DNA from: Primulina eburnea
Lineage: Eukaryota; Streptophyta; Magnoliopsida; Lamiales; Gesneriaceae
Length of the DNA stretch: 64,000 nucleotides
Direction: 5' to 3'
Assembly (NCBI RefSeq): GCF_022965805.1
Contig: NC_133104.1
Span: 19,701,071 to 19,765,070 of the forward strand
The position numbers and the translations under genes were made by a program. Shown here one piece after another: positions 179 to 47,888 of this stretch (positions are counted from its first letter, which is position 1; every line of letters begins with the position of its first letter). Below the pieces are notes generated by a model. The model did no database searches. It was not told the origin of the DNA and saw nothing but the letters and a program-made list of their open reading frames with translations.

Positions 179-3152
179 TGATTTGCCTCGATTTCTTCTC
201 AATTGCAGCAGAAGGGTTCGAGATTTCAGAGGGAAGAAAAGCTTTCAACTTTCTTTTCACTTTCAAATTGTGATTTTGCAAGATTTAGCAATCCAAAATT
301 AAATCCGACTTCGCTTTTGAACTCCTCTCTTTATTAGCTACAAGGTGATGTAAGTTTTCTTCAATTCCAGCATGTTTTGAAATATATATGTTGGGAGAAT
401 TATGGTTTAAGCTTTAGAATGTGTTTTTGTAGTTATTGACACCGTAGAAATACAATCAGATTGAAGAACGGATATCGTATGCTATTATTACGATTTTCAG
501 CATGTATAGAATGAAGTATATGCAGATTTTGAGATCTTGACTTGGATATTGTGATGATTATGAATTGAGGATATAGTTTTGTGTTGATTATGTTGTATTG
601 ATTTGACCGGTGTCGAGAATTACGTCGTTATGCCGTCAAATTGTATCAAGATCAAGTATTGAGAGTGGATAGGTGTTGATTTGGATTAGTAATTGATAAA
701 TTGTGTATCAACATTCCATTTCAGATTCATCTTACCTCGCTTCGACATCGAGACCTCGACATCGATAAAGGTTTAACAAAAAAAGGTATAAGTCATGTTT
801 TGTTTGGGGGAGATGTAACTCAAATAAGATATTATTTGAGTTTCCCAACCAAAATCACATACTAGTATTATTAGATATATTGTAACATGTTTATGAATTG
901 TGTATAGCATTATATTCAATCTTTTAACATGTTTATGCTTTGATTTCCGAATTGTATTCAAGCATGTATGATCAGGGTGATATTCAGATATGAATATGAT
1001 TATACTTTGTTTACATATTGATATTCATTGCATCTAAGATAGGAGAGTCTTTGACAGGCATTGTCAAATAGCTAGTCGTTTCGGTGTATCTCAGCATAGG
1101 AGTAGGTATTACTCCTATTTCCGCCGTTGATACAGCTCAGACCGAAGTCTAGGAATGAGACATACATTACCCCGATTGGAGGGTAGGTAGTGACGTCTTA
1201 TTCACACCGGGATCCCTAGAGTTCTAGTCGAGTCGAGTCCAGACATGGTTTGATTCGCATTGCATTGCATGTGCATTTGATGTCATTCATGATAGCATGG
1301 TTCATGTTTAATTGATTATATGCATGTATACATGTTTATACTGGGATTTGTTCTCACCGGTTTTCCGGCTGTTGTTATGTCTGTATGTGTGCATAACAAC
1401 AGGTGGGGCAGGATCTGGGTCACGCAGAGGATGAGAGATGGACATAGCGTGGTGATCTCGGGCATAGCAGAAGAACTAGTAGTTGTACTTTTGGCATGTA
1501 CTGTATTTAATTACTAGTTGTCGAATATGGTTTGGAACCAGACATATTTGTATCTTATGTTTGTATATTATGTTGTTGAATAACATAGAGACTTCTTATG
1601 TTAGCTTTCATTTGAGTTAATGTAAAAAGAAAAATTTGACCAACTTTTTATATTAATGATCCGTTTTAATCCCAAAGAAAAGAATTAGAGCCCGGGTCCC
1701 CACATGGATTGAAAATTTTGTGGACTTTATTTTGGGGTTGCCTAGGACGAAGAAAGGATGTATTCTATTTTTGTAGTTGTGGATAGATTCTCTAAGATGG
1801 CACATTTTATAGCTTGTCATGAAACCGATGATGCTTCAAACATTGCGTATTTGTTCTTTAGAGAAGTCGATAGGTTGCATGGCATGCCTAGGACTATTGT
1901 TTCTCGTCGCAATGTTAAATTTTTGAGTTACTTTTGGAATAATTTATGGGCTAAACTTGGCACAAAATTGTTGTTTTCTACTACTAGTCATCCTCAAACG
2001 GATGGACAAACTGAAGTTGTCAATAGAACTTTGGGAACACTTTTTCGTGCTATTCTTAAAAGAAACTTGGATTGACATTTCTATGGACTTTAGTTTGGGG
2101 TTGCCTAGGCCTAAGAAGAGGAGGGATTCTATTTTTGTTATTGTGGATAGATTTTCTAAGATAGCACATTTTATAGCTTGTCATAAAAGCGATGATGCTT
2201 CAAACATTGCGGATTTGTTCTTTAGAGAAGTCGTTAGGTTGCATGGCATGCCTAGGACTATTGATTCTGGTCGCGATGTTAAATTCTTGAGTTACTTTTG
2301 GAAGACTTTATTGGCTGAAATTGGCACAAAATTGTTGTTTTCTACTACTTGTCATCCTCAAACTGATGGACAAACTGAATTTGTCAATAGAACTTTGGGA
2401 ACACCTTTGCGTGCTATTCTTAAAAAGAACTTGGATTGACAATTCTATGGACTTTATTTTGGGGTTGCCTAGGACTAAGAAGGGGAGGGATTCTATTTTT
2501 GTTATTGTGGATAGATTCTCTAAGATGGCACATTTTATAGCTTGTCATAAAACCGATGATGCTTCAAACATTGCGGATTTGTTCTTAAAGAAGTTGCTAG
2601 GTTGCTTGGCATTCCTAGGACTATTGTTTCTGTTCGCGATGTTAAATTCTTGAGTTACTTTTGGAAGACTTTATGGGCTGAACTAGGCACAAAATTGTTG
2701 TCTTCTACTACTTGTCATCCTCAAACTGATGGACAAACTGAAGTTGTCAATAGAACTTTGGGAACACCATTGCGTGCTATTCTTAAAAAGAACTTGGATT
2801 GACATTTCTATGGACTTTATTTTGGGGTTTCCTAGGACTAAGAAGGGGAGGGATTCTATTTTCGTTGTTGTGGATAGATTCTCTAAGATGGCACATTTTA
2901 TAGCTTGTCATAAAACCGATGATGCTTCAAACATTGCGGATTTGTTTTTTAGAGAAGTCGCTAGATTGCATGGCATGCCTAGGACTATTGTTTCTCGTCG
3001 CAATGTTAAATTCTTGAGTTACTTTTGGAATACTTTATGGGCTAAACTTGGCACAAAATTGTTGTTTTCTACTACTTGTCATCCTCAAACTGTAGTTGTC
3101 AATAGAACTTTGGTAACACTTTTGCGTGCTATTCTTAAAAAGAACCTGGATT

Positions 3153-4607
3153 GACAATTCTATGGACTTTATTTTGGGGTTGCCTAGAACTAAGAAGGGA
3201 TGTATTCTATTTTTGTTGTTCTGGATATATTCTCTAAGATGGCACATTTTATAGCTTGTCATGAAACCGATGATGCTTCAAACATTGCGTATTTGTTCTT
3301 TAGAGAAGTCGATAGGTTGCATGACATGCCTAGGACTATTGTTTCTCGTCGCAATGTTAAATTTTTGAGTTACTTTTGGAATAATTTATGGGCTAAACTT
3401 GGCACAAAATTGTTGTTTTCTACTACTTGTCATCCTCAAACAGATGGACAAACTGAAGTTGTCAATAGAACTTTGGGAACACTTTTTCGTGCAATTCTTA
3501 AAAGGAACTTGGATTGACATTTCTATGGACTTTAGTTTGGGGTTGCCTAGGCCTAAGAAGAGGAGGGATTCTATTTTTGTTATTGTGGATAGATTTTCTA
3601 AGATAGCACATTTTATAGCTTGTCATAAAAGCGATGATGCTTCAAACATTGCGGATTTGTTCTTTAGAGAAGTCGTTAGGTTGCATGGCATGCCTAGGAC
3701 TATTGATTCTGGTCGCGATGTTAAATTCTTGAGTTACTTTTGGAAGACTTTATGGTCTGAAATTGACAAAAAATTGTTGTTTTCTACTACTTGTCATCCT
3801 CAAACTGATGGAAAAACTGAAGTTGTCAATAGAACTTTGGGAACACCTTTGCGTGCTATTCTTAAAAAGAACTTGGATTGACAATTCTATGGACTTTATT
3901 TTGGGGTTGCCTAGGACTAAGAAGGGGAGGGATTCTATTTTTGTTGTTGTGGATAGATTCACTAAGATGGCACATTTTATAGCTTGTCATAAAACCGATG
4001 ATGCTTCAAACATTGCGGATTTGTTCTTTAGAGAAGTTGCTAGGTTGCTTGGCATGCCTAGGACTATTGTTTCTGTTCGCGATGTTAAAGTCTTGAGTTA
4101 GTTTTGGAAGACTTTATGGGCTGAACTTGGCACAAAATTGTTGTTTTCTACTATTTGTCATCCTCAAACTGATGGACAAACTGAAGTTGTCAATAGAACT
4201 TTGGGAACACGTTTGCGTGCTATTCTTAAAAAGAACTTGGATTGACATTTCTATGGACTTTATTTTGGGGTTTCCTAGGACTAAGAAGGGGAGGGATTCT
4301 ATTTTCGTTGTTGTGGATAGATTCTCTAAGATGGCACATTTTATAGCTTGTCATAAAACCGATGATGCTTCAAACATTGCGGATTTGTTCTTTAGAGAAG
4401 TCGCTAGGTTGCATGGCATGCCTAGGACTATTGTTTCTCGTCGCAATGTTAAATTCTTGAGTTACTTTTGGAATACTTTATGGGCTAAACTTGGCTCAAA
4501 ATTGTTGTTTTCTACTACTTGTCATCCTCAAAAGGATGGACAAACTGAAGTTGTCAATAGAACTTTGGGAACACTTTTGCGTGCTATTCTTAAAAAGAAC
4601 CTGGATT
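3153..4607 (+). repeat. Higher-order repeat a-b-c-d, copy 2 (1455 bp)
   Basis: Four unit types in fixed order. Type a (3153-3515) has GGATGTATTC and an AAC-ATT-GCG-TAT stretch. Type b (3516-3879) has AAAAGCGATG and GATTCTGGTCGCG. Type c (3880-4243) has GTTGCTTGGC and GTTTCTGTTCGCG. Type d (4244-4607) has GGGTTTCCTAGG and CTCGTCGCAATG. The same order occurs at 1711-3152, where unit d has a small deletion, and at 7441-8895. Confidence 0.85.
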
Positions 4608-6060
4608 GACAATTCTATGGACTTTATTTTGGGGTTGCCTAGGACTAAGAAGGGATGTATTCTATTTTTGTTGTTGTGGATAGATTCTCTAAGATGGCAC
4701 ATTTTATAGCTTGTCATGAAACCGATGATGCCTCAAACATTGCGTATTTGTTCTTTAGAGAAGTCGATAGGTTGCATGGCATGCCTAGGACTATTGTTTC
4801 TCGTCGCAATGTTAAATTTTTGAGTTACTTTTGGAATAATTTATGGGCTAAACTTGGCGCAAAATTGTTGTATTCTACTACTTGTCATCCGCAAACGGAT
4901 GGACAAACTGAAGTTGTCAATATAACTTTGGGAACACTTTTGCGTGCTATTCTTAAAAAGAACTTGGATTGACATTTCTATGGACTTTAGTTTGGGGTTG
5001 CCTAGGCCTAAGAAGAGGAGGGATTCTATTTTTGTAGTTGTGGATAGATTCTCTAAGATGGCACATTTTATAGCTTGTCATAAAACCGATGATGCTTCAA
5101 ACATTGCAGATTTGTTCTTTAGAGAAGTCGCTAGGTTGCATGGCATGCCTAGGACTATTGTTTCTCGTCGCAATGTTAAATTCTTGAGTTACTTTTGGAA
5201 TACTTTATGGGCTAAAATTGGCACAAAATTGTTGTTTTCTACTACTTGTCATCCTCAAACGGATGGACAAACTGAGTTGTCAATAGAACTTTGGGAACAC
5301 TTTTGCGTGCTATTCTTAAAAAGAACCTGGATTGACAATTCTATGGACTTTATTTTGGGTTTGCCTAGGACTAAGAAGGGATGTATTCTATTTTTGTTGT
5401 TGTGGATAGATTCTCTAAGATGGCACATTTTATAGCTTGTCATGAAACCGATGATGCTTCAAACATTGCGTATTTGTTCTTTAGAGAAGTCGATAGGTTG
5501 CATGGCATGCTTAGGACTATTGTTTCTCGTCGCAATGTTAAATTTTTTAGTTACTTTTGGAATAATTTATAGGCTAAACTTGGCACAAAATTGTTGTTTT
5601 CTACTACTTGTCATCCTCAAACGGATGGACAAACTGAAGTTGTCAATAGAACTTTGGGAAAACTTTTGCGTGCTATTCTTAAAAGGAACTTGGATTGACA
5701 TTTCTATGGACTTTAGTTTGGGGTTGCCTAGGCCTAAGAAGAGGAGGGATTCTATTTTTGTTGTTGTGGATAGATTTTCTAAGATGGCACATTTTATAGC
5801 TTGTCCTAAAAGCGATGATGCTTCAAACATTGCGGATTTGTTCTTTAGAGAAGTCGTTAGGTTGCATGGCATGCCTAGGACTATTGATTCTGGTCGCAAT
5901 GTTAAATTTTTGAGTTACTTTTGGAAGACTTTAAGGGCTAAACTTGACACAAAATTGTTGTTTTGTACTACTTGTCATCCTCAAACGGATGGACAAACTG
6001 AAGTTGTCAATATAACTTTGGGAACACTTTTGCGTGCTATTCTTAAAAAGAACTTGGATT

Positions 6061-6714
6061 GACATTTCTATTGACTTTATTTTGGGGTTGTTGTGGATAG
6101 ATTCTCTAAGATGGCACATTTTATAGCTTGTCATAAAACCGATGATGCTTCAAACATTGCGGATTTGTTGTTTAGAGAAGTCGCTAGGTTGCATGGCATG
6201 CCTAGGACTATTGTTTCTCGTCGCAGTGTTAAATTTTTGAGTTACTTTTGGAATAATTTATGGGCTAAACTTGGCAGAAAATTGTTGTTTTCTACTACTT
6301 GTCATCCTCAAACGGATGGACAAACTGAAGTTGTCAATATAACTTTGGGAACACTTTTGTGTGCTATTCTTAAAAAGAACTTGGATTGACATTTCTATGG
6401 ACTTTATTTTGGGGTTGTTGTGGATAGATTCTCTAAGATGGCACATTTTATAGCTTGTCATAAAACCGATGATGCTTCAAACATTGCGGATTTGTTGTTT
6501 AGAGAAGTCGCTAGGTTGCATGGCATGCCTAGGACTATTGTTTCTCGTCGCAATGTTAAATTTTTGAGTTACTTTTGGAATAATTTATGGGCTAAACTTG
6601 GCAGAAAATTGTTGTTTTCTACTACTTGTCATCCTCAAACGGATGGACAAACTGAAGTTGTCAATAAAACTTTGGGAACACTTTTGCGTGTTGTTCTTAA
6701 AAAGAACTTGGATT
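6061..6714 (+). repeat. Two 327-bp deletion-variant units (type e)
   Basis: Units 6061-6387 and 6388-6714 lack the same 37 bp that normally follows GGGGTTG, so GGGGTTG joins directly to TTGTGGATAG. The same deletion recurs at 13377-13703, at 13704-13747 continued at 21768-22055, at 26634-26960 and at 38842-38977. One event has been amplified through the array. Confidence 0.85.
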
Positions 6715-7440
6715 GACATTTCTATGGACTTTAGTTTGGGGTTGCCTAGGCTTAAGAAGAGGAGGGATTCTATTTTTGTAGTTGTGGATAGATTCTCTAA
6801 GATGGCACATTTTATAGCTTGTCATGAAACCGATGATGCTTCAAACATTGCGGATTTGTTCTTTAGAGAAGTCGCTAGGTTGCATGGCATGCCTAAGACT
6901 ATTGTTTCTCGTCGCAATGTTAAATTTTTGAGTTACTTTTGGAATAAATTATGGGCTAAACTAGGGACAAAATTGTTGTTTTCTACTACTTGTCATCCTC
7001 AAACTGATAGACAAACTGAATTTGTCAATAGAACTTTGGGAACACCTTTTCGTGCTATTCTTAAAAAGAACTTGGATTGACAATTCTATGGACTTTATTT
7101 TGGGGTTGCCTAGGACTAAGAAGGTGAGGGATTCTATTTTGTTGTTGTGGATAGATTCTCTAAGATGGCACATTTTATAGCTTGTCATAAAACTGATGAT
7201 GCTTCAAACATTGCGGATTTGTTCTTTAGAGAAGTCCTAGGTTGCTTGGCATGCCTAGGACTATTGTTTCTGTTCGCGATGTTAAATTCTTGAGTTACTT
7301 TTGGAAGACTTTATGGGCTGAACTTGGCACAAAATTGTTGTTTTCTACTACTTGTCATCCTCAAACTGATGGACAAACTGAAGTTGTCAATAGAACTTTG
7401 GGAACACTTTTGCGTGCTATTCTTAAAAAGAACCTGGATT

Positions 7441-8895
7441 GACAATTCTATGGACTTTATTTTGGGGTTGCCTAGGACTAAGAAGGGATGTATTCTATTT
7501 TTGTAGTTGTGGATAGATTCTCTAAGATGGCACATTTTATAGCTTGTCATGAAACCGATGATGCTTCAAACATTGCGTATTTGTTCTTTAGAGAAGTCGA
7601 TAGGTTGCATGGCATGCCTAGGACTATTGTTTCTCGTCGCAATGTTAAAATTTTGAGTTACTTTTGGAATAATTTATGGGCTAAACTTGGCACAAAATTG
7701 TTGTTTTCTACTACTTGTCATCCTCAAACGGATGGACAAACTGAAGTTGTCAATAGAACTTTGGGAACACTTTTTCGTGCTAATCTTAAAAGGAACTTGG
7801 ATTGACATTTCTATGGACTTTAGTTTGGGGTTGCCTAGGCCTAAGAAGAGGAGGGATTCTATTTTTGTTATTGTGGATAGATTTTCTAAGATAGCACATT
7901 TTATAGCTTGTGATAAAAGCGATGATGCTTCAAACATTGCGGATTTGTTCTTTAGAGAAGTCGTTAGGTTGCATAGCATGCCTAGGACTATTGATTCTGG
8001 TCGCGATGTTAAATTCTTGAGTTACTTTTGGAAGACTTTATGGGCTGAAATTGGCACAAAATTGTTGTTTTCTACTACTTGTCATCCTCAAACTGATGGA
8101 CAAACTGAATTTGTCAATAGAACTTTGGGAACACCTTTGCGTGCTATTCTTAAAAAGAACTTGGATTGACAATTCTATGGACTTTATTTTGGGGTTGCCT
8201 AGGACTAAGAAGGGGAGGGATTCTATTTTTGTTGTTGTGGATAGATTCTCTAAGATGGCACATTTTATAGCTTGTCATAAAACCGATGATGCTTCAAACA
8301 TTGCGGATTTGTTCTTTAGAGAAGTTGCTAGGTTGCTTGGCATGCCTAGGACTATTGTTTCTGTTCGCGATGTTAAATTCTTGAGTTACTTTTGGAAGAC
8401 TTTATGGGCTGAACTTGGCACAAAATTGTTGTTTTCTACTACTTGTCATCCTCAAACTGATGGACAAACTGAAGTTGTCAATAGAACTTTGGGAACACCT
8501 TTGCGTGCTATTCTTAAAAAGAACTTGGATTGACATTTCTATGGACTTTATTTTGGGGTTTCCTAGGACTAAGAAGAGGAGGGATTCTATTTTCGTAATT
8601 GTGGATAGATTCTCTAAGATGGCACATTTTATAGCTTGTCATAAAACCGATGATGCTTCAAACACTACGGATTTGTTCTTTAGAGAAGTCGCTAGGTTGC
8701 ATGGCATGCCTAGGACTATTGTTTCTCGTCGCAATGTTAAATTCTTGAGTTACTTTTGGAATACTTTATGGGCTAAACTTGGCACAAAATTGTTGTTTTC
8801 TACTACTTGTCATCCTCAAACTGATGGACAAACTGAAGTTGTCAATAGAACTTTGGGAACACTTTTGCGTGCTATTCTTAAAAAGAACCTGGATT
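7441..8895 (+). repeat. Higher-order repeat a-b-c-d, copy 3 (1455 bp)
   Basis: Units a 7441-7803, b 7804-8167, c 8168-8531 and d 8532-8895 carry the same type-diagnostic bases as 3153-4607 and give exactly the same total length. Same-type units are visibly closer across copies than different types within a copy, the defining mark of higher-order satellite organisation. Confidence 0.85.
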
Positions 8896-10714
8896 GACAA
8901 TTCTATGGACTTTATTTTGGGGTTGCCTAGGACTAAGAAGGGATGTATTCTATTTTTGTTGTTGTGGATAGATTCTCTAAGATGGCACATTTTATAGCTT
9001 GTCATGAAACCGATGATGCCTCAAACATTGCGTATTTGTTCTTTAGAGAAGTCGATAGGTTACATGGCATGCTTAGGACTATTGTTTCTCGTCGCAATGT
9101 TAAATTTTTGAGTTACTTTTGGAATAATTTATGGGCTAAACTTGGCACAAAATTATTGTATTCTACTACTTGTCATTCTCAAACGGATGGACAAACTGAA
9201 GTTGTCAATATAACTTTGGGAACACTTTTGCGTGCTATTCTTAAAAAGAACTTGGATTGACATTTCTATGGACTTTAGTTTGGGGTTGCCTAGGCCTAAG
9301 AAGAGGAGGGATTCTATTTTTGTAGTTGTGGATAGATTATCTAAGATGGCACATTTTATAGCTTGTCTTGAAACCGATGATTCTTCAAACATGGCGGATT
9401 TGTTCTTTAGAGAAGTCGCTAGGTTGCATGGCATGCCTAGGACTATTGTTTCTCGTCGCAATATTAAATTTTTGAGTTACTTTTGGAATAATTTATGGGC
9501 TAAACTTGGCACAAAATTGTTGTTTTCTACTACTTGTCATCATCAAACGGATGGACAAACTGAAGTTGTCAATAGAACTGTGGGAACACTTTTTCGTGCT
9601 ATTCTTAGAAGGAACTTGGATTGACATTTCTATGGACTTTAGTTTGGGGTTGCCTAGGCCTAAGAAGAGGAGGGATTCTATTTTTGTTATTGTGGATAGA
9701 TTTTCTAAGATAGCACATTTTATAGCTTGTCATAAAAGCGATGATGCTTCAAACATTGCGGATTTGTTCTTTAGAGAAGTCGTTAGGTTGCATGGCATGC
9801 CTAGGACTATTGATTCTGGTCGCGATGTTAAATTCTTGAGTTACTTTTGGAAGACTTTATGGGCTGAAATTGGCACAAAATTGTTGTTTTCTACTACTTG
9901 TCATCCTCAAACTGATGGACAAACTCAATTTGTCAATAGAACTTTGGGAACACCTTTGCGTGCTATTCTTAAAAAGAACTTGGATTGAAAATTCTATGGA
10001 CTTTATTTTGGGGTTGCCTAGGACTAAGAAGGGGAGGGATTCTATTTTTGTTGTTGTGGATAGATTCTCTAAGATGGCACATTTTATAGCTTGTCATAAA
10101 ACCGATGATGCTTCAAACATTGCGGATTTGTTCTTTAAAGAAGTTGCTAGGTTGCTTGGCATGCCTAGGACTATTGTTTCTGTTCGCGATGTTAAATTCT
10201 TGAGTTACTTTTGGAAGACTTTATGGGCTGAACTTGGCACAAAATTGTTGTTTTCTACTACTTGTCATCCTCAAACTGATGGACAAACTGAAGTTGTCAA
10301 TAGAACTTTGGGAACACCTTTGCGTGCTATTCTTAAAAAGAACTTGGATTGACATTTCTATGGACTTTATTTTGGGGTTTCCTAGGACTAAGAAGGGGAG
10401 GGATTCTATTTTCGTAGTTGTGGATAGATTCTCTAAGATGGCACATTTTATAGCTTGTCATAAAACCGATGATGCTTCAAACATGACGGATTTGTTCTTT
10501 AGAGAAGTCGCTAGGTTGCATGGCATGCCTAGGACTATTGTTTCTCGTCGCAATGTTAAATTCTTGAGTTACTTTTGGAATACTTTATGGGCTAAACATG
10601 GCACAAAATTGTTGTTTTCTACTACTTGTCATCCTCAAACTGATGGACAAACTGAAGTTGTCAATAGAACTTTGGGAACACTTTTGCGTGCTATTCTTAA
10701 AAAGAACCTGGATT
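8896..10714 (+). repeat. Expanded higher-order repeat a-f-b-c-d (1819 bp)
   Basis: Units a 8896-9258, f 9259-9622, b 9623-9986, c 9987-10350 and d 10351-10714. One extra unit of type f is inserted relative to the four-unit repeat, as unequal exchange would produce. Confidence 0.8.
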
Positions 10715-11299
10715 GACAATTCTATGGACTTTATTTTGGGGTTGCCTAGGACTAAGAAGGGATGTATTCTATTTTTGTTGTTGTGGATAGATTCTCTAAG
10801 ATGGCACATTTTATAGCTTGTCATGAAACCGATGATGCTTCAAACATTGCGTATTTGTTCTTTAGAGAAGTCGATAGGTTGCATGGCATGCCTAGGACTA
10901 TTGTTTCTCGTCGCAATGTTAAATTTTTGAGTTACTTTTGGAATAATTTATGGGCTAAACGTGGCACAAAATTGTTGTTTTCTACTACTTGTCATCCTCA
11001 AACGGATGGACAAACTGAAGTTGTCAATAGAACTTTGGGAAAACTTTTGCGTGCTATTCTTAAAAAGAACTTGGATTGACATTTCTATGGACTTTAGTTT
11101 GGGGTTGCCTAGGCCTAAGAAGAGGAGGGATTCTATTTTTGTTGTTGTGGATAGATGTAAGGCTCAAAGATTTAGTTATCATAATCAGATGGATTCGTTG
11201 ATAATTAAGATGATTGTAGATGTATTTCATTGGACTAGAAAAGAAAGGGGAATGTATAATAAAGATGTGAAAGATAGTCAAAAGAATAAGTAAGGCCGA

Positions 11300-11570
11300 A
11301 GCTATGGCGCATATGCGCGAAGGAATGCGCGCATATGCATGAGAATTCCAGTAGCATTGGCGCATATGCGCGGAAAGAGTGGCGCATATGCGCGACATGT
11401 ACAGTAGCCTTGGCGCATATGCGCGAGAGTAGTGGCGCATATGCGCGGAGCGTCCAGAACCATTGGCGCATATGCGCGAGTTTAGTGGCGCATATGCGCG
11501 AGTGCTAAAATCTACGAGACAGTAGGTCTCGCGCACATGCGCGAGTAATGCCGCGCATTTGCGCGAGACG
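11300..11570 (+). repeat. GCGCATATGCGC palindrome cluster in F2 U3
   Basis: About ten copies of a motif centred on GCGCATATGCGC, some degenerate (GCGCACATGCGC, GCGCATTTGCGC), spaced about 20-45 bp. A TA-rich run follows at 11612. The position corresponds to the GC-rich clusters of LTRs A, B and D, but the motif differs. Confidence 0.85.
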
Positions 11571-11611
11571 TGTGCTTCAAAGGGTGAGCCATGTGTTCGA
11601 AACATGCAAGG

Positions 11612-11624
11612 TATATATATATAT
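11612..11624 (+). promoter_or_regulatory. Putative TATA box of F2 LTR
   Basis: A TATATATATATAT run lies directly downstream of the palindrome cluster and matches 171-178 in F1. The transcription start cannot be placed from sequence alone. Confidence 0.45.
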
Positions 11625-15342: not shown

Positions 15343-15353
15343 CTATATATATA
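15343..15353 (-). promoter_or_regulatory. Putative TATA box of A 3' LTR
   Basis: A TATATATATA run lies, in sense orientation, about 50 bp downstream of the GC-rich repeat cluster. The counterpart in the other LTR is 21300-21310. Confidence 0.45.
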
Positions 15354-15402
15354 CTGCATGCAAAGTCTGAAACATGGCATCATTTCGCATGCAACACGCA
15401 TG

Positions 15403-15604
15403 ACCGCGGGTGCGGTAGCTCAGGAGCGCGGGTGCGCTGTGCTCACGGCGAGTTCATCCAAAAATGTAGCACCTAGACCGCGGGTGCGGTCTCACCCTGC
15501 GGGCGCGGTCTTGCTAACACTGCGGGTGCGGTGTCTGTTCGCACAAAACTCATTTTTCTATCTTTACACCGCGGGTGCGGTGATGTTAATACCGCAGGTG
15601 CGGT
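15403..15604 (-). repeat. ACCGCACCCGCGGT motif cluster in A 3' LTR
   Basis: About seven copies of ACCGCACCCGCGGT or one- to two-base variants on the sense strand, between the LTR start and the TATA run. The same motif, in the same orientation relative to transcription, occurs in LTRs B, D1 and D2. Confidence 0.85.
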
Positions 15605-15801: not shown

Positions 15802-15802
15802 A

Positions 15803-19698: not shown

Positions 19699-19703
19699 CC
19701 TGT

Positions 19704-26994: not shown

Positions 26995-29055
26995 TGTTAG
27001 AGTAGGTGCACGTCGAGCCAAGTGTTGGCCGACTGTTCACGATGAAACTCTTTGTATAAACGATCTTTATTTTAATAATATTTGAATTTATTAATTTGGC
27101 GCATCTTTATCTTTATACCCATGCTAGCTGCATAGATAAAGCCCTTGAATATACAAATAGTAGAAAGAATATGAGATGCTCATATGATGAGTATCATGAA
27201 ACTCATATTTGTAATACTGTATATTCTAAACCGTTCCTAGTCGATTCAGCCGCCACTAAGAAGGATAAAGGCCGCTCGAGTTAGAGACTAGTATCTGCGA
27301 TGTGAGTACCATGTTTCATTGGTAGGGGACATTGTGATGTCCGAGCATGCAGATAGGTGCTCCTGGTAGAGTGCACTGAACAACCCTCCATAAAAGGACT
27401 TTCCAAGTGGTTCTCACTTATCGAGTGGAAAAGTCCTGGTTTATGGTTGTACACCATTAGTCCTTATGACCCGGGACAACATTGAGACTCTATATGCTAG
27501 CGTTTCACTTTGACTTGTTTACCGACTCTTATGGGGTCATTAGGTGGCAAGATTGGGTGTTACGGCGAAACATATAGGAGTCGATGCATTGTAGTCGGGG
27601 ATTCACCGCTTACCTACGGGTATGGATATCCTATGTGTTTTTCATGTATGTGTGGGTTGAAATCTCTGATCAGAGTATGGTGGTAATTATGAAAGGGGTT
27701 TCATAGATTACACCATCGTTGCAACCACGACATGACACATAGTATCGATTCATTGACAACTCTCGATAGACCAATAGTTGTCGAATCAGTCGGGATATAT
27801 GAGTTGAAGGGACCGTACTGTACGCTAACCATAATTGAATGGTTCTTGCAGGCACTATCATGTGATACCTAGGGAATCACGTAAGCGATGCTGCTAGGCG
27901 TTTAACGTGATTGGTTGGGTACTATCAGACTTGAGTTCTGACGTTCTTACTATCAAGGAGTTGATAAGTAAGAATGGAGCAATTGGGGTATGCTCGAATA
28001 AGGACATGTTTAGTCCGAATCACATAGAGATGTGAACCCACGGCTAGTTGTATCAATGAACCATTGAGGGCCACACAAATACTTGCTTAGTAAATCCCGA
28101 AGAGAAGTAAAATAGTTCAATGTGTTGAACGGCTTATAAAAGTGTTTATAAACGTAAAGAAAATTAGAAGTATGACTTCTATGAGAGATATAAATTTTAA
28201 TTTATGGAAGTGTTCCTAAGATTAAAATTTGGCCAAGTAAATAATGTAGTTGAAAATTGTGATTTTCATAAACATTATTGTGGACTAAATTAAATTAATT
28301 CAAGTGTTGAATTAATTAAACACTAGTGGACCTAGTAGAGTCTAAATAATTAAATTAATTCAAGTGTTGAATTAATTAAATAATATTGAGTCTTGTAGAG
28401 CTCAATTTAAATAATTATTTAACTAGTGGGACTTGATTAAAATCAAGTAATATTTAATTAATCTCAAATGTGTTTGAGATAATAAAATTTAGTCTATGGT
28501 TTTTAATGTGTTAAAAACCATATAATATATGTGAGACATGCTAGGGTTTGCATGTTTGGGAGGTGAAAGGTTGTTGATTACTTTTTATTAAAAAATTCCA
28601 AAAGCATGCAACTTTTGAGAGACAACTTTACACAACAACCTAGGCTAGTCTCCCACACTCATCTCACACTTCACTTGGCCGAATTTTTGGGGTGGTTTTC
28701 TCTCTCATTTTTCAAGTTTTTGTTCTTCATTTTGGAGAGCAAAAATCATTCTCTTTGAAAAATCCTCAAGTTTTTCTAGTGCAAAACTTGAGGGGATTTA
28801 CCTTGTTAAGTAGTGGGCTTGATTTTTGGAGGAAGGAAGCTTGTAGACTTATCTTGCCAAGAAGAGCTTAGTTGCTTGCAACTAAGTTGGAGCCATCATC
28901 AACTTCTTGAAGTTGATAGGTAAAAATTCTAAAACATCCTATGTATGTTTTGTTTTGTAAATATTGCATGAAAACCAAGGTGGCCGAAATTTGTATGTTT
29001 TTCGAAAATTTATGCTTCCGTTGTGTTTCCGGCCACCGTAACCGGTCCGCTTTCA
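26995..29055 (+). repeat. Element C1 5' LTR (2061 bp)
   Basis: Starts TGTTAGAGTAGG and ends CCGCTTTCA. It contains an internal near-duplicate of ~70 bp around 28275-28400, each half holding the inverted repeat TTAATTCAAGTGTTGAATTAA. The 62-codon frame near 27096 starts at TTG and has no known domain. Confidence 0.95.
28290..28400 (+). repeat. Imperfect tandem duplication with inverted repeats in C1 LTR
   Basis: A segment built on AATTAAATTAATTCAAGTG, then its partner GTTGAATTAATTAAA, occurs twice and is separated by a CTAGTAGAGTC-type linker. It recurs in the other C1 LTR and in both C2 LTRs. Each half could form a short hairpin. Confidence 0.7.
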
Positions 29056-29057
29056 AG

Positions 29058-29069
29058 TGGTATCCGAGC
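29058..29069 (+). other. Primer-binding site of element C1
   Basis: TGGTATCCGAGC begins two bases after the 5' LTR. It is one base off the usual initiator tRNA-Met complement, and the same variant is present in C2 at 42701-42712, so it is a family feature. Confidence 0.85.
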
Positions 29070-30878
29070 TTAGGTTACGGTTTTTGTGCTATATTTACGT
29101 AATATTGTATTGAGATCGATTTCTAACCGCTTGAGAATTTTTTGTGCAAGTTTTTCATAGGGCCGAAAATTCTATTTCAAAAACAAAAAAAAAATAAATT
29201 TTCGGGCAGCATGTTGCTGCCCGAGGGCTGCCCGAGCTGCCCGGAAATTTCGGGCAGCAAAGGGCAGCCCGAGGGGGCTGCCCGAAAATGCAGTTTTTAA
29301 AAATAAAAAAAAAAATTTTTTTTGTTGCCGGAATCCGGCGACGGAGCTCCGGCGACGGCGATGACGGCTAGGGTTTCCAAAAGTGTTTTGGACAATCTTA
29401 GTGTCATGGGCCTTGAGTTGTTGGGCCATTAGATGGTCAACATAATTTTGTAAAATTTAAATGGGCCAAACTATTTTTGTTGAAAAATGAGTTTTGGGCC
29501 CTTAAGTTTAAATTTACAATTGTTGCACATATTTTCTCATAAAATAAATAATTGAAGTAGGACTTTAATTATTTATAGTAAATTGTGATTTATAAGAAAT
29601 TCGATTATAAATAAATTAATTTGAAAGTAGACAAAGGTGTTTGTATACTTTGTTAATTTAATTTATAATTGTAGCGGTTAGTGATTGGATCAAGATATAT
29701 AATATTGGATCAATTAATCATAGTGATAATTAATTGATGGTGTATGATATATGATATTGTGCATGAAGGATGATCAAAAGCCCAAGCCCAATTTGCTAGG
29801 TGTATGCTAGGATATTTGTGTTGTATAATTGTAATAATTATCAATTTAAAGTGGGCTTGGTTTATGGCCCGTTCCCACCCCATGAGATGTATCCCTATGT
29901 GCCATGGATATTTAATTGTAAATATTAGAATAGGGAAAGATCAAGATTGGAAGATGGTGGCCTTGGTGATTATGAAGATCGAAGACATGTAATATTGGAT
30001 GCTAATGTAATAGTATAGTTGCATTGCATCCCGTGCATTTACCCTCGGATTGGACCTAGGCCCGTGTTTAGCTCACACGGGCCATTAGTGTTGGGGCAAT
30101 TGATCATCCTTGTACTGTTTTCTATTTATAATATATGCATGATATGTTATAAATAATGAGTATGTGCGTTATTATTATTATAATAACAAAGTTGCATGAA
30201 TCCGGCAAACATACGATCAAACATGGCGAGCTTTTAAAATAAAATTAATCATGAGACCTTTCAAAATTAAAAAACCCTCATTTTGAATTAGATTCAAAAT
30301 TAATATCAAGTCCGAAAAGGGGAATTATAAATTTGTTTATAATTTCCTTGTCTTCCATCGACAATGGGTGCATGATGAACGCTACCCGTACTCAGGGCTC
30401 GGCTCAGATAATTGAGGGGGCCCTGGGTGCCGGAAAGCTGTGACATCCATTGACATAGTGATGTGAACTACGTGGAACTCCCATGACTTCGGCTCAGATA
30501 ATTGAGGGAACTCATGGCGACCGTCCATTAAGGTTCAACATCGATGGGTAAGGATTGACACGTAAAGATGAACGACGTCTATAATGGGTCCTAATCAAAC
30601 GTGAGACAAAAGTTTACGTTAAGGGTTGCATTGTGATGCAATTGGGAAACTACCTTTTAGGAATTGTGATTGGCTGTATAAACGGGATCATAATTCGCTA
30701 ATTGGACCTTACGTACCTACTGAGGAAAGTGTTTCCCGTTTTCACTAGAGGGTAGTGAAAATGTCAAAACAGTGGGAGCGATTATTTATAAAGTAAAAGT
30801 CCAAACTTTATATCTTATTAAATATTTTAAAATAGTCATTAACATTTATCTGTTTTACTTTTCAGTACAATCTTTGAC
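29070..30878 (+). other. C1 untranslated leader
   Basis: 1.8 kb between primer site and gag with no convincing coding frame. At 29203-29288 it holds repeated CGGGCAGC/GCTGCCCG inverted elements flanked by A-rich runs, then a CCGGCGACGG repeat near 29336-29362. Both are conserved in C2 (42842-42912 and about 42958-42985). Such GC stems in a retroelement leader could serve RNA packaging, dimerisation or translation, but no such role can be shown from sequence. Confidence 0.7.
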
Positions 30879-32367
30879 ATGTCATCAATTCGCAACCCGT
30901 TTTCCGTCATTCTCGAAAAACACATTCTAACCGGACCAAACTATATCACTTGGCTAAGAAATTTAAAGATTGTCCTAAACTCGGAGAAGATCGCGTATAC
31001 ACTGACTGAGGCGCCCCCTGCTGAGGCTCCTATAGGCTGCACTCCTGAGGAATTGCAGACCTACAAGGAATGGTGTGACCATGACTTGAAGGCGAAGTGT
31101 TATATGCAGGCTTCGATGAACGATGAGCTGCAAAGGCGATTCGAGGATGCTAAGAATGCTGCTGACATTCATATGCACCTCAAGGAGCTCTTCGGTGAGC
31201 AGACTCGGCCTTTGAGGCATGCCACAGTAAAGGAGCTCATCACTTTACGCATGCGAGATGGGACTTCGGTCCATGAGCATGGCCTAAAGTTGATTGGGCT
31301 CGTGGACAAGCTCGTAGGCATGGATTTGGTGTTGCCTTCGGAGTTGACCACTGATGTGTTACTGATGTCGCTGCCTAGCTCTTTCGATCCTTTCGTTGTG
31401 AACTTCAATATGAACAAGCTCGAGCCCAGCCTTGAAGAGTTGGTGGACATGCTTGTGACCTTTGAGTCCACAATCAAAAAGGAGAAGCAGGTTCTTTATG
31501 TGGGCTCTTCATCTGGCACGAAGACCGGTCCACCTGGGAAGGGAAAGAAGCGTTCTTTCCAGCGTACCAAGAAGAGCGAGCCCTTGAAGAGGCAGACTTC
31601 GAGTCCCGTTGTGGCAGCCGCGCCAGTGAAGGCTGAAAAGACTGTTGACATCTGTCACCACTGCAAGAAGCCTGGACATTGGAGGCGTAACTGCAGGGAA
31701 TATCTTGCGCAGAAGGGTTCTGGCAAAGGTATGTTCTTTATTGAAGTAAATATCTCGATTAACTCTACTTCTTGGGTATTGGATACCGGCTGTGGCTCAC
31801 ATCTCTGTAATGATTTGCAGGCGATGGGAAGAAGTAGGAGGCTCCGAGAGGGTGAGACCTTCTTGAAGATGGGCAATGGAGCAAGAGTTGCTGCCAAAGC
31901 CGTAGGAGATGTTTGTTTAATTTTGAACAATGATTTTAAGCTTATTTTGAGAGATGTTTTATTTGTACCAGACTTGATTAAAAACATTATTTCCATTCCT
32001 ATGCTTGATATCGATGGATTTTCTTGTTTATTTGGCAAAGGTGTTTGCAATATTTACAAGAATGAATGTTTAGTTGGTACCGGTGAACTTGAAAACAATC
32101 TCTACACCTTAAAATTAAAAGATATTCCACTTAACAATGTCCAAACGATAACAACAACAAATAAGCGCAAACAAGATACTCTTAATGCGGCACAATTATG
32201 GCATGCTCGATTAGGTCATATTTCCTCAAGAAGGATGAACAAGCTAGTGGGAGTTGGCATGTTTGATATGTCTGATATTAATGCTCTCACGACTTGTGAA
32301 TCCTGTCTGAAAGGAAAGATGACCAAAATTCCCTTTAAGGGCCATGCGGAGCGAGCCAAAGGGTTAT
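30879..32367 (+). CDS. gag-pol: C1 Gag-protease-pre-integrase part of copia polyprotein (interrupted)
   Basis: ATG at 30879. The frame stays open until solo LTR D1 begins at 32368 and supplies a stop (32370-32372). Residues 1 to ~215 form a copia-type Gag (LTGPNYITWLRNLK near the N-terminus). A CCHC knuckle, CHHCKKPGHWRRNC, lies at residues 259-272. The aspartic protease site DTG is at 302-304 (WVLDTGCGSH). A GAG-pre-integrase segment with LWHARLGH lies near 440-450. In the particle, protease would cleave the polyprotein. The frame resumes in phase after D1, at 33988, so the insertion is the main break. Confidence 0.9.
32363..32367. other. Target-site duplication of D1 (left copy)
   Basis: GTTAT is repeated at 33983-33987, immediately after the D1 end GTGTCACA. 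Confidence 0.88.
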
Positions 32368-33982
32368 TGTAATAGCTGAGCCCGGTGTACGGCACGGTTT
32401 AAGCTTTATTGTGTTATTTGGGTTTATGATTAGTTGTTTATAGTTGTGTTTTGGGCTATAGTATTATTGGTTATTATTTATTTGAGGTATTAGTTGGTGT
32501 TGATTGTTCGTTTCAGCGTTTCGGATCGATTTTAGTTGAGTTTGTACTGTTCATTGCCGTGAGTAGAGTGCACCCGCGCTCTTAGATGAGTGCCCCCGCG
32601 GTGTACTATTCATCATTTTGCATTTGGAAGGCCGTGGCACCACCGCACCCGCGGCAGTGCAAGGACCGCACCCGCGGTGTGCACCGCACCCGCGGTAATT
32701 GTAGCACCGCACCCGCGGTGATCGTGCATGGGATTTATTTTGGAATGCCGTGAGCATGGCGCACCCGCGGTGCTTGTGTTGGCGCACCCGCGGTGTAAGT
32801 ATGGGCGAGTTATTTAGTACCTTTTTGATTGAGTTGACTTCATTCCATACCTTATTCTATCTACTTTTCGAGATTTTCTCTCAAATACCAAGGGTTTTCA
32901 TCCATTTCTTTTGCTTCCTATCTTTGATTCTTGGCTTTGTTTGGATTTCCGACTTTAGATCAACGTTCTCCATGGTATAAGGAAGCTTAGGTAAGTTTTT
33001 GGTGCGATTCTAACGAGGTTTTGAGTTAAGGGTTATTTTGGATTTGATGTTTGAGTTGTTTAATGGATTATTTGGCTTGTACTTGTGGATCTAGAGTTGA
33101 TATTGGTGTTATTTATGGATTATTGTTGTAGGTGGTGTACCAAGAGCTTATTTGAGGTGTTCTATTGGTTTGTAAGTGGAATTTCATCCTTTTTGCTCAC
33201 ATGATATTATATGTATTGTGTTTTAAAGGTTTCAAAGTGTTATTCCCTTCAATTGATTCATTGTTATATATTGATTCCATTGCTATGTTCATTGGAGGCA
33301 TTGTATGTCTCACCATTGTTATAAAGGGAATACAAGATATATTATGAGATTGCGAAACGACGGCCTTAAATGCTATTGAGAATTCAAATGTTTTATTGGA
33401 TTGATTTATCATAGCCATGGCATTGCATGCAATTAGATGATCATCGACCATAGGCTTTTATCCCCTCACAGTTATCGATTTATATCGATGGGATATTGGC
33501 AACCACAGTTACAGATACTATTGATATCAATCCAACCATAGAAAAGAGAATACCATCGTTTTGCTATCTATTGCCATTGCTATTGCTACAGTTATTGCTA
33601 CGTTATTCATGTTTCAGAGTCGATGGTATTTATGATTTAAAAGCCATGTTTTACAGTGTATACTATGTATCATTGCTATGTAAGAGTTCCACTTGCTGAG
33701 ATTTATTCTCATTTCAGTTTATTCATGTGATGCAGATAAGAGCGACAGACCGGGGCAGTGATCGTGGATGGGGGTCATATGCATGCACCGTTGGAAGGAA
33801 GGATATTTTGTATCATTTTGGGACATGATCATAAGAATGATTATTTTGTATTTTGTATGTCATTTGAATGATCATGTGTTTATTTTGTAAACATTTTATG
33901 AAATGTATTTTGAAACTCCTTCCATTTGAAAGAAAATTTTAAATTCCGCTGTATTTTAATTGTAACGGGTCAGGGTGTCACA
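32368..33982 (+). mobile_element. D1: solo gypsy-type LTR inside C1 (1615 bp)
   Basis: Starts TGTAATAGCTGAGCCCGG, ends GGGTGTCACA and is bordered by GTTAT on both sides. It is homologous over much of its length to the D2 LTRs (46056-47883), which are followed by a tRNA-iMet primer site, so D is an LTR family. No internal region is present. It contains the GC-motif cluster at 32569-32794. ORFs inside it are short and match no known family. Confidence 0.9.
32569..32794 (+). repeat. ACCGCACCCGCGGT motif cluster in D1
   Basis: About eight copies or variants (CACCGCACCCGCGG, GGCGCACCCGCGGTG) on the sense strand in the first quarter of the LTR. D2 has four copies in the matching place. Confidence 0.88.
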
Positions 33983-33987
33983 GTTAT

Positions 33988-36431
33988 TGGATTTGATCCA
34001 TACCGATGTGTGCGGTCCGCTTAGCATCACCACTAAGCATGGACATGCCTACTTCATCACCTTTACCGATGACTATTCGAGGTATGGGTATGTGTATTTG
34101 ATGAAATACAAGTCTGAAGCCTTTGAACGGTTCAAAGAATTCAGAAGTGAAGTAGAGAAACAATTGGGACGAAGCATCAAGACACTTCGATCGGATCGAG
34201 GTGGCGAGTACTTGAGTGGCGAGTTCCAAGAGTATCTAAGGGAGAATGGGATTCTCTCGCAGTGGACTCCGCCTGCTACACCGCAGTTGAATGGTGTATC
34301 GGAGCGTCGTAACCGGACCTTGATGGACATGGTTCGGTCTATGATGGGGTTCACGGAGTTGCCGCCATCCTTTTGGGGATATGCGCTTGAGACAGCGGCA
34401 CTGTTGTTGAACCATGTCCATACAAAAGCAGTTGATAAGACACCATATGAGATATGGATGGGTAAGCCACCCAAATATTCTTATTTTAGAATATGGGGGT
34501 GCCCTGCTTATGTGAAGCAGGTAGTGGGAGATAAATTGGATAGTCGATCCATTTTATGCTACTTTGTGGGATATCCAAGGAATTCAGCTGGATATTATTT
34601 CTATCATCCTCAAGAAACAAAAGTATTTGTTTCTAGGAATGCAACCTTTTTGGAAAAGGAATTTCTATTGGATAGAAAAGGCGAGATGATAGAACTCGGA
34701 GAGGTTCGAGAGACACCCACAGTTGTAGAACCCACACCCGAGAAGCCAAGTGAGGAGATACAAGTTCCTAGAAGAACCGAGAGAGTCTCGAGACCACCTG
34801 TGAGGTATGGTCTGCTTCTTGAAGAGGGCCATGATGAGCCTAACCTTGGATGTGATCCAAGGACTTTCAAGGAAGCGTTGTCGGATGCCGATTCATCCAA
34901 GTGGCTTGAAGCAATGGAATCTGAGATGAATTCCATGCATTCGAACCAAGTGTGGAATCTCGTGGATCCACCTGAGGGAATTGTTCCCATAGGGTGTAAA
35001 TGGATTTACAAGAGGAAACTTGGGGCGGATGGGAAGGTATTGACCTTCAAGGCGCGATTGGTAGCAAAAGGGTATACTCAAAGGCAAGGTGTTGACTATG
35101 AGGAAACCTTTTCTCCAGTTGCGATGTTCAAGTCCATTAGGATATTGCTAGCCATAGCTGCATGGTATGACTATGAGATATGGCAGATGGATGTTAAGAC
35201 AACCTTCCTTAATGGGGATATTAAGGAAGAAATTTACATGTCTCAACCTGAGGGTTTCACATCTATCGGAAGTGAGCATATGGTATGCAAACTTCAAAGA
35301 TCTATTTATGGTCTTAAGCAGGCATCGAGGAGTTGGAACCTCATATTCGATAGTACAATCAAAGAGTTTGGTTTTACTAAGAATCCTGAGGAACCCTGTG
35401 TGTATAAGAAGGTCAGTGGGAGTGCTGTGACATTCCTAGTTCTTTATGTTGATGACATTCTACTCATTGGGAATGATGTAGGAATGTTGCAATTAACTAA
35501 GATATGGTTAGCATGTAAGTTCTCAATGCAGGACTTGGGTGAAGCATCTTTTGTATTGGGAATACAGATCTATAGAGATAGATCAAAAAGATTGCTTGGT
35601 CTCACCCAGTCCACATACATTGATACCATCGTGAAGCGGTTCTCGATGGATGAGTCCAAGAGAGGACATCTACCAATGTGTCATGGCGTGTCCCTATCCA
35701 AGTCTATGTCTCCCAAGACTGATGCAGAGATAGCGGCGATGACACGAATTCCGTATGCTTCAGCCATTGGTAGTATCATGTATGGGATGATATCTACACG
35801 TCCTGACGTGGCATTTGCACTAAGTGTAGTGAGTAGATATCAATCCAACCCCGGTCTTCCACACTGGAAAGCTGTGAAAGACATCCTCAAGTATTTTAGA
35901 AGGACCAATAAGTTGTTCTTGGTCTATGGGGGTGGAGAACTGAAATTGGAAGGCTATACCGACTCTAGCTTCCAAAGCGATGTTGATGACTCGAAGTCAA
36001 CCTCCGGATTCATATTCATGCTCAATGGTGGTGCTGTCTCTAGGAAGAGTTCCAAGCAAGACAGTACTGCGGATTCCACCACTGAGGCAGAATACATTGC
36101 TGCATCGGCTGCAGCAAAGGAGGCTGTTTGGATTAGGAATTTCGTCCAAGAGTTGGGCGTCATTCCAAATGGAGTTGCTCCTATCCCGGTGATGTGCGAC
36201 AACACGGGAGCCATAGCTCAGGCGAAGGAGCCAAGGTCTCATCAGAAGTCCAAACACGTACTGAGAAAGTACCACATCCTCAGAGAGATCGTGGAAAGAG
36301 GAGATGTCGTGATTGACAAAGTCGGCTCCGCAGATAATGTTGCTGATCCACTAACTAAGCCTTTACCAGGACCATCATTCGAGAAGCATCGCGAATCAAT
36401 GGGTCTAAAGAGTATAGGTAGTTGGCTCTAG
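33988..36431 (+). CDS. pol: C1 integrase-RT-RNase H part of copia polyprotein
   Basis: Open from D1 to the stop ending at 36431; the frame extends upstream into D1, but coding sequence proper starts at 33988. Residue numbers here count from 33975. Integrase core: HTDVCGP near 10, RSDRGGEY near 73, GVSERRNRT near 110, giving the D-D-E triad. RT: KWIYKRKL near 340, MDVKTTFLNG, and catalytic YVDD at 491-494. RNase [13 protein letters not shown] near 700 and the ADPLTK region near the C-terminus. This order is that of a Ty1/copia pol, which copies element RNA in cytoplasmic particles and inserts the cDNA in the nucleus. No internal stop or frameshift is visible. Confidence 0.92.
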
Positions 36432-36433
36432 TG

Positions 36434-36445
36434 CAAGTGGGAGAT
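36434..36445 (+). other. Polypurine tract of C1
   Basis: CAAGTGGGAGAT directly precedes the TGTTAGAG start of the 3' LTR. The same tract lies at 55956-55967 in C2. Confidence 0.82.
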
Positions 36446-38506
36446 TGTTAGAGTAGGTGCACGTCGAGCCAAGTGTTGGCCGACTGTTCACGATGAAACT
36501 CTTTGTATAAACGATCTTTATTTTAATAATATTTGAATTTATTAATTTGGCGCATCTTTATCTTTATACCCATGCTAGCTGCATAGATAAAGCCCTTGAA
36601 TATACAAATAGTAGAAAGAATATGAGATGCTCATATGATGAGTATCATGAAACTCATATTTGTAATACTGTATATTCTAAACCGTTCCTAGTCGATTCAG
36701 CCGCCACTAAGAAGGATAAAGGCCGCTCGAGTTAGAGACTAGTATCTGCGATGTGAGTACCATGTTTCATTGGTAGGGGACATTGTGATGTCCGAGCATG
36801 CAGATAGGTGCTCCTGGTAGAGTGCACTGAACAACCCTCCATAAAAGGACTTTCCAAGTGGTTCTCACTTATCGAGTGGAAAAGTCCTGGTTTATGGTTG
36901 TACACCATTAGTCCTTATGACCCGGGACAACATTGAGACTCTATATGCTAGCGTTTCACTTTTACTTGTTTACCGACTCTTATGGGGTCATTAGGTGGCA
37001 AGATTGGGTGTTACGGCGAAACATATAGGAGTCGATGCATTGTAGTCGGGGATTCACCGCTTACCTACGGGTATGGATATCCTATGTGTTTTTCATGTAT
37101 GTGTGGGTTGAAATCTCTGATCAGAGTATGGTGGTAATTATGAAAGGGGTTTCATAGATTACACCATCGATGCAACCACGACATGACACATAGTATCGAT
37201 TCATTGACAACTCTCGATAGACCAATAGTTGTCGAATCGGTCGGGATATATGAGTTGAAGGGACCGTACTGTACGCTAACCATAATTGAATGGTTCTAGC
37301 AGGCACTATCATGTGATACCTAGGGAATCACGTAAGCGATGCTGCTAGGCGTTTAACGTGATTGGTTGGGTACTATCAGACTTGAGTTCTGACGTTCTTA
37401 CTATCAAGGAGTTGATAAGTAAGAATGGAGCAATTGGGGTATGCTCGAATAAGGACATGTTTAGTCCGAATCACATAGAGATGTGAACCCACGGCTAGTT
37501 GTATCAATGAACCATTGAGGGCCACACAAATACTTGCTTAGTAAATCCCGAAGAGAAGTAAAATAGTTCAATGTGTTGAACGGCTTATAAAAGTGTTTAT
37601 AAACGTAAAGAAAATTAGAAGTATGACTTCTATGAGAGATATAAATTTTAATTTATGGAAGTGTTCCTAAGATTAAAATTTGGCCAAGTAAATAATGTAG
37701 TTGAAAATTGTGATTTTCATAAACATTATTGTGGACTAAATTAAATTAATTCAAGTGTTGAATTAATTAAACACTAGTGGACCTAGTAGAGTCTAAATAA
37801 TTAAATTAATTCAAGTGTTGAATTAATTAAATAATATTGAGTCTTGTAGAGCTCAATTTAAATAATTATTTAACTAGTGGGACTTGATTAAAATCAAGTA
37901 ATATTTAATTAATCTCAAATGTGTTTGAGATAATAAAATTTAGTCTATGGTTTTTAATGTGTTAAAAACCATATAATATATGTGAGACATGCTAGGGTTT
38001 GCATGTTTGGGAGGTGAAAGGTTGTTGATTACTTTTTATTAAAAAATTCCAAAAGCATGCAACTTTTGAGAGACAACTTTACACAACAACCTAGGCTAGT
38101 CTCCCACACTCATCTCTCACTTCACTTGGCCGAATTTTTGGGGTGGTTTTCTCTCTCATTTTTCAAGTTTTTGTTCTTCATTTTGGAGAGCAAAAATCAT
38201 TCTCTTTGAAAAATCCTCAAGTTTTTCTAGTGCAAAACTTGAGGGGATTTACCTTGTTAAGTGGTGGGCTTGATTTTTGGAGGAAGGAAGCTTGTAGACT
38301 TATCTTGCCAAGAAGAGCTTAGTTGCTTGCAACTAAGTTGGAGCCATCATCAACTTCTTGAAGTTGATAGGTAAAAATTCTAAAACATCCTATGTATGTT
38401 TTGTTTTGTAAATATTGCATGAAAACCAAGGTGGCCGAAATTTGTATGTTTTTCGAAAATTTATGCTTCCGTTGTGTTTCCGGCTACCGTAACCGGTCCG
38501 CTTTCA
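36446..38506 (+). repeat. Element C1 3' LTR (2061 bp)
   Basis: Same length as 26995-29055, with about seven single-base differences. Followed by the second GCCTA target copy and the remainder of the broken b' unit. Confidence 0.95.
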
Positions 38507-38977
38507 GCCTAGGCCTAAGAAGAGGAGGGATTCTATTTTTGTTGTTGTGGATAGATTTTCTAAGATGGCACATTTTATAGCTTGTCCTAAAAGCGATGAT
38601 GCTTCAAACATTGCGGATTTGTTCTTTAGAGAAGTCGTTAGGTTGCATGGCATGCCTAGGACTATTGATTCTGGTCACAATGTTAAATTTTTGAGTTACT
38701 TTTGGAAGACTTTATGGGCTAAACTTGACACAAAATTGTTGTTTTCTACTACTTGTCATCCTCAAACGGATGGATAAACTGAAGTTGTCAATATAACTTT
38801 GGGAACACTTTTGCGTGCTATTCTTAAAAAGAACTTGGATTGACATTTCTATGGACTTTATTTTGGGGTTGTTGTGGATAGATTCTCTAAGATGGCACAT
38901 TTTATAGCTTGTCATAAAACCGATGATGCTTCAAACATTGCGGATTTGTTGTTTAGAGAAGTCGCTAGGTTGCATGG
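38507..38977 (+). repeat. Integrase-core array, block 4
   Basis: Rest of the b' unit broken by C1 (to 38841) and the first 136 bp of a 327-bp e unit, cut by element B at 38978. The b'-e order repeats that at 5697-6387 and 11078-13703. The array presumably continues beyond element B, outside the window. Confidence 0.92.
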
Positions 38978-42698: not shown

Positions 42699-42700
42699 AG

Positions 42701-47883: not shown

Positions 47884-47888
47884 TTTAG

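Follow-up and report, generated by a model that had tools for sequence, protein, structure and literature searches.

An array of head-to-tail units of about 364 bp, situated between positions 1705 and 38977 of the 64,000-nucleotide stretch of DNA analysed here (the window), looks like young, satellite-like, non-coding tandem DNA. The array very probably goes back to a single tandem duplication of a ~364-bp segment from the integrase core of a plant-type Ty3/gypsy element. Unequal exchange, replication slippage or gene conversion would then have multiplied and partly homogenised the units, giving rise to a local four-unit order and later to the duplication of a nine-unit block, after which LTR elements would have inserted into the array.

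Organization of the tandem array

The window is plant-type DNA packed with LTR retrotransposons. The array spans positions 1705–38977 with interruptions and amounts to 15,796 bp, or 43.5 unit equivalents, once the insertions are removed. Because the array stops at an LTR edge on each visible side, this length of ~15.8 kb is a minimum. The GC content of the array is 36.7%, compared with 39.1% for the window.

An iterated profile search of the window gave 50 matches, comprising 49 plus-strand pieces within 1705–38996 and one minus-strand match (59220–59532) that belongs to another element. Rejoining of the pieces separated by insertions reduced the 49 pieces to 45 unit positions, which consist of 41 pieces of at least 320 bases, 2 insertion-split units, 1 large-deletion unit, and 1 partial unit at the right end. 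The plus-strand array is divided into 4 blocks: (i) U01–U26 and the start of U27 (1705–11155; TRF and profile search); (ii) the remainder of U28, U29, and the start of U30 (13087–13747; profile search); (iii) U31–U46 and the start of U47 (21768–26994; TRF and profile search); and (iv) U48 and the partial U49, which is truncated by the right-hand gypsy element (38507–38977; profile search). TRF gave overlapping rows at 1705–11156, 13086–13748, and 21767–26990 with periods of 364, 327, and 227 and 92–96% matches, and no row for the last array piece (38507–38977). The commonest lengths among the 49 pieces are 364 bp (18 pieces) and 363 bp (13 pieces). Four pieces of 327 bp each have a 37-bp deletion, 2 pieces of 352 bp (U04 and U37) have differing small deletions, and a single unit is ~227 bp long.

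Like a satellite, the array has a long unit and many head-to-tail copies, with 45 unit positions and 44 junctions, as anticipated by the original prediction of about 45 units in one array. The splits that it placed at 11156, 13748, 26995, and 38978 coincide with the first bases of the interrupting elements. Its unit length of ~364 bp is exact for 18 pieces and has to be supplemented by the 363-bp class; the resemblance of 364 bp to the length of two nucleosome repeats is a coincidence of size.

The unit derives from an integrase core

Read in frame, the 364-bp unit comprises 121 codons (WIDISMDF...RAILKKN). In U19, an example unit of type B on the plus strand (8162–8525), this 121-residue fragment matched the Pfam integrase core family rve over profile positions 9–102 of 102 with an E-value of 6.3e-07 and a score of 30.0 bits, which is below the curated score of 32.6. 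The search with the unit protein returned 7,194 matches, and the figures for relatives given here are from the 120 matches listed. P0001, the best-scoring listed relative, shares 86% identity with the unit across all 121 residues and, like the unit, contains PWIDISMDF. Regarding the segment ends, SMDF is present in 37, VNRTL in 36, and SDRD in 40 of the best 45 of the 7,194 matches. Several relatives have P-L-P-I-P or P-L-P-V-P ahead of the core and K-T-W-E-D-C-L-P-H as its continuation; the array has neither.

A second relative, L001, is a contig of 4,999 bp deposited as Bradyrhizobium sp. MOS002. It encodes a 1,326-residue polyprotein frame that has no closed 5′ end and contains zinc-knuckle (weak match), RT, RNase H, integrase zinc finger, rve, and SH3-like domains. 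To judge by its sequence, this contig is plant-type Ty3/gypsy DNA in a bacterial assembly, apparently host contamination. L001 has 82% protein identity to the unit, and the segment is located inside its uninterrupted polyprotein. All 121 residues of U19 can be aligned to both P0001 and L001, and the consensus DNA is 78% identical to L001 over 324 bp. By these similarities, the unit is derived from a Ty3/gypsy integrase core of plant type, and its sequence type may be that of the CRM clade. The predicted gypsy integrase origin thus agrees with the rve match and with both relatives. The predicted extent from SMDF to LRAILKKNL is right for the core and needs correction at the ends, since the segment starts at W-I-D-I-S-M-D-F and stops at K-K-N.

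The parent element was not found in the window by profile search or protein comparison, and viral_contigs yielded no confirmed relative of the unit protein. The minus-strand integrase of the window (59220–59532) was considered as a parent and rejected, because P0001 and L001 are far closer to the unit: the unit protein is 52% identical to its C-side piece over 65 residues and 41% identical to its N-side piece over 51. The minus-strand gypsy RT–integrase frame is split by an in-frame stop at 59375–59377.

A single junction and the founding duplication

A 26-nt junction pattern (AAGAACYTGGATTGACAWTTCTATGG), searched with at most 3 mismatches, occurs 44 times in the window, always on the plus strand and always within the array, whereas its mean count in 100 shuffles was 0.00. 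The same 26-mer has 0 exact matches in viral_contigs. One junction is common to all 44 unit boundaries; therefore, one founding tandem duplication, as originally predicted, explains them most simply.

The founding join would have fused the segment end (..AAGAACT) to the segment start (TGGATTGAC..), possibly by end-joining or by slippage of the template where a few bases were shared. Four distinct internal unit deletions, read by eye, share 3–6 bp at their breakpoints (GTTG, AAACTG, TTTAT, and TGG), which suggests that slippage or microhomology joining acted at the array locus and may also have produced the founding join. On the 5′ side of the segment, L001 has CCTTGGGAGG, and in the array the K-N-L run is encoded by AACTTG; CTTG was thus possibly shared at the founding join, L001 being a relative that diverges at its own 3′ side. 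Because the parent element was not found within the window, we infer the founding breakpoint from relatives.

The left LTR edge (1704/1705) falls a few bases from the founding junction of the unit, and 3 of the 8 differences between the edge unit U01 and the D consensus are located in the first 16 bp. This edge may mark the original array edge, or its position may be due to chance.

Translation across a junction gives a 208-residue ORF (5436–6059 of the window), for which 6,286 matches were obtained in the protein collection, with 120 listed. Of 311 collected proteins, 191 match this ORF, and the sole aligned piece starting before residue 75 is that of P0277, which begins at residue 52 and is a 34-residue run-on and not a whole frame-shifted half. 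None of the proteins among the matches listed for the ORF stems from such an array. The top score belongs to P0241, because P0241 is itself an integrase dimer. This protein (312 residues; source ncbi; 1,537-bp contig) has 2 tandem in-frame integrase cores, the second starting at S-V-F-V-V-V-D, and its duplication covers nearly the same segment as the array unit with a different breakpoint. The dimer could be real or an assembly product.

Unit order and block duplication

Each unit was assigned to the nearest of 8 hand-picked representatives, which gave the type order DABCDABCDCDgcceBDABCDfABCDgcceBDABBABDABBBcgc. The mean distance within types A to D is 1.2–2.7%, compared with 5.0–8.5% between them; type means are 3.9–8.5% apart overall, and 7 unit clusters are obtained at a 4% cut-off. 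The steps D>A, A>B, B>C, and C>D account for 21 of the 44 transitions, compared with 5.6 ± 2.1 (maximum 14) in 20,000 shuffles. The predicted higher-order structure, a D-A-B-C unit order, is therefore real but imperfect. The mean distance at lag 4 is weakly low over the whole array (p 0.09), which indicates that the four-unit order is local. Among the 20 lags, the lowest nominal p values, uncorrected for the number of lags, were those of lags 15–17 (0.003–0.009) and lag 6 (0.013).

The lag-15 signal fits the repetition of a nine-unit block, U11–U19 (DgcceBDAB), as U26–U36, with 36 differences in 3,192 sites (1.1%). The block duplication predates the insertion of a solo LTR and a gypsy element, because both are located in the second copy and not in the first. 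A further mark of satellites is concerted evolution or higher-order structure, which the D-A-B-C order and the block duplication supply here, although lag 4 stands out little over the whole array (p 0.09).

Insertions, array edges and other elements

Three LTR insertions split the array. A plus-strand solo LTR (11156–13086) interrupts unit U27/U28, with a target duplication of TAGA (4 bp) or, if its terminal A is counted as target, ATAGA (5 bp); short palindromic repeats (GCGCATATGCGC) are present in tandem at 11305–11502. A minus-strand gypsy element (13748–21767) with a gag ORF at 18360–19385 interrupts unit U30/U31; its LTRs (13748–15793 and 19704–21767) differ by K = 0.0104. A plus-strand copia element (26995–38506) interrupts unit U47/U48, and its LTRs are 99.66% identical (K = 0.0034). 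The gypsy and copia insertions are flanked by perfect 5-bp target duplications, GATTC and GCCTA, respectively.

On the left, the array is bounded by the 3′ part of a plus-strand LTR (1–1704), which ends in ...GGGTCCCCACA, abuts the first unit, extends left of the window, and resembles the solo LTR and the reverse-oriented gypsy LTRs. On the right, the array is cut by the 3′ LTR of a minus-strand gypsy element (38978–64000) that contains nested insertions, has a sub-threshold chromodomain match, and extends beyond the window; its LTR divergence, from the visible part, is 0.0164 over 739 sites. At substitution rates of 1.3e-8 or 7e-9 per site per year, the gypsy insertion would be about 0.4–0.7, the copia insertion about 0.13–0.24, and the right-hand gypsy about 0.6–1.2 million years old. 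The interrupted units are older than the insertions.

The copia polyprotein has a top-ranked match, among those listed, of 74% identity, and the organism-named listed matches are from flowering plants, save one filed under Salmonella. In the young copia element at 26995–38506, the polyprotein is interrupted at 32373–33965, and the region 32679–33983 is 84% identical to LTR-like repeats at 46573–47891 and 52951–54262; by this similarity, the interrupting stretch is probably a nested LTR. A second copia element (40557–58109) is nested in the right-hand gypsy. Inside it are direct repeats at 46056–47883 and 52434–54261 (99.6%), and within this pair a further pair at 47950–49452 and 50678–52180 (99.87%) flanks a gag-like ORF (49422–50576). 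Apparently, 4 elements lie here one inside the other. The innermost has, in its terminal repeats, 71-bp tandem repeats (48068–48321 and 50796–51049) with palindrome-like TTCGGACGGTCCGAA motifs.

Alternative origins of the array

The array could have a structural role as a satellite of the centromere or pericentromere and stem from a centromeric retrotransposon of the CRM type, a reading that we regard as possible though unlikely. The maize arrays CRM1TR and CRM4TR arose from CRM elements in or near centromeres, as described in the accessible portion of PMC3648361. At a threshold of E 0.001, L001 has no Pfam chromodomain; this and the sub-threshold match of the window gypsy would fit CRM groups A and B as they appear in the accessible text. 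Against this, only one stretch of 15.8 kb is seen, and any chromatin or centromere role is putative.

A slimmer chance attaches to a broader proposal, that tandem duplications have arisen repeatedly from the integrase core in this plant Ty3/gypsy group and here gave a satellite possibly forming pericentromeric or centromeric blocks. P0241 has a separate duplication of nearly the same segment.

We give little credence to the array being an internal tandem repeat of one retrotransposon family, spread by transposition in the manner of Ogre 3′ repeats. Such cases are common, with 9 Ogre-borne satellites in Lathyrus sativus according to the available text of PMC7004042, and both visible array ends are LTR edges. 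However, units are interrupted by all three insertions and by the right-hand element, and perfect target duplications flank the gypsy and the copia, so that the presence of the array in every copy of one family, named beforehand as a finding that would speak against a satellite, has no support within the window. Furthermore, the end of the left LTR is followed by unit sequence and not by a primer-binding site of the form expected after an LTR, and the unit is integrase coding sequence, not UTR. The profile search of the window revealed no unit-like stretch in the splitting or cutting elements besides the distant integrase of the right-hand gypsy. Ogre-type repeats are located between the LTRs of one element and outside its coding region, which is not the arrangement at this locus.

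Absence of coding constraint on the array

Coding selection on the array, or an integrase-derived peptide produced from it, is hardly credible, even though, among the 18 units of exactly 364 bp, 17 have no internal stop and can be read through all 121 codons. Three lines of evidence indicate that no coding constraint acts on the array: (i) a unit of 364 bp shifts the reading frame at every junction; (ii) variation is spread evenly over the codon positions; and (iii) the second catalytic Asp is gone. Coding constraint would load variation onto codon position 3. In the U19 register, the numbers of variable columns at positions 1, 2, and 3 are 39, 45, and 42, and those of columns with the minor base in at least 2 units are 17, 24, and 18; these counts already contradict the coding reading.

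The second Asp of SDRD has a catalytic role in integrases. The middle of the L001 core reads SDRD with this Asp, as do 96 of 120 relatives among the matches listed. The Asp is present in 0 of 46 array rows, which represent 43 distinct units holding the site (3 split units entered the count twice, once merged and once raw); the array reads SRRN, SVRD, SGRD, SGRN, SGHN, or SRRS instead. Because GAT, GTT, and CGT can each be reached from GGT (Gly) in one step, the simplest reading is that the founder copy was already without the Asp and hence may have been dead. The stop-free units count against a non-coding satellite-like array founded by one duplication, since a long non-coding history need not have kept the frames open; they suggest that the array is young or well homogenised.

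An assembly artefact expanding one or two real units, also named beforehand as a possible refutation, is unlikely, and close to negligible, for although tandem repeats are hard to assemble, the diverged clusters and types follow a patterned order and different units carry insertions, 2 of them with perfect 5-bp target duplications.

Relation to known satellites and significance

The birth of a satellite from a coding part of a retroelement is uncommon but not unheard-of. In the accessible parts of the sources, the known cases compare with the present array as follows: (i) CRM1TR and CRM4TR, for which founding by illegitimate recombination was proposed, are likewise wholly derived from Ty3/gypsy elements and contain later retrotransposon insertions usable for dating, but they consist of CRM LTR plus UTR, with CRM4TR monomers of ~1.4 kb, whereas the present unit is integrase core only and 364 bp long (PMC3648361); (ii) the wheat and rye centromeric 250-bp repeat, from the cereba gag region, and rye E3900 are also plant tandem repeats linked to a coding part, but they come from gag and upstream sequence, and the amino-acid similarity of the 250-bp repeat to gag is 53%, compared with 82–86% protein identity to integrase relatives here (PMC9659126, PMC3648361); (iii) the Lathyrus FabTR satellites, from Ogre 3′ tandem repeats, share a retrotransposon origin but grow out of repeats that the element itself contains downstream of its coding region (PMC7004042); and (iv) the Chenopodium CACTA-derived Jozin satellite, the LINE-derived PROsat, Pvc 20, and chicken HinfI are likewise TE coding sequence, but from transposase or LINE ORF2 of other TE classes (PMC9659126).

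The satellite sources given in the accessible text of a review are LTRs, UTRs, gag, LINE ORF2, and CACTA transposase, and the word integrase occurs 0 times in that text (PMC9659126). No satellite consisting purely of integrase core was found in the accessible open-licence literature, which is weak evidence of absence. The unusualness claimed in the original prediction therefore stands for an integrase-only unit and not for satellites from retroelement coding parts in general, which have been published.

The array is a record of how satellite DNA can originate from an arbitrary stretch of retrotransposon coding sequence; nothing in the unit points to an earlier repeat, an LTR, or a UTR. It also preserves an order of events, from one join through the divergence of unit types, the multiplication in a local order, and the duplication of a block to the invasion by elements with rough LTR dates. 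If the unit were abundant and centromeric, it would be an integrase-core case of retrotransposons renewing centromeric satellites.
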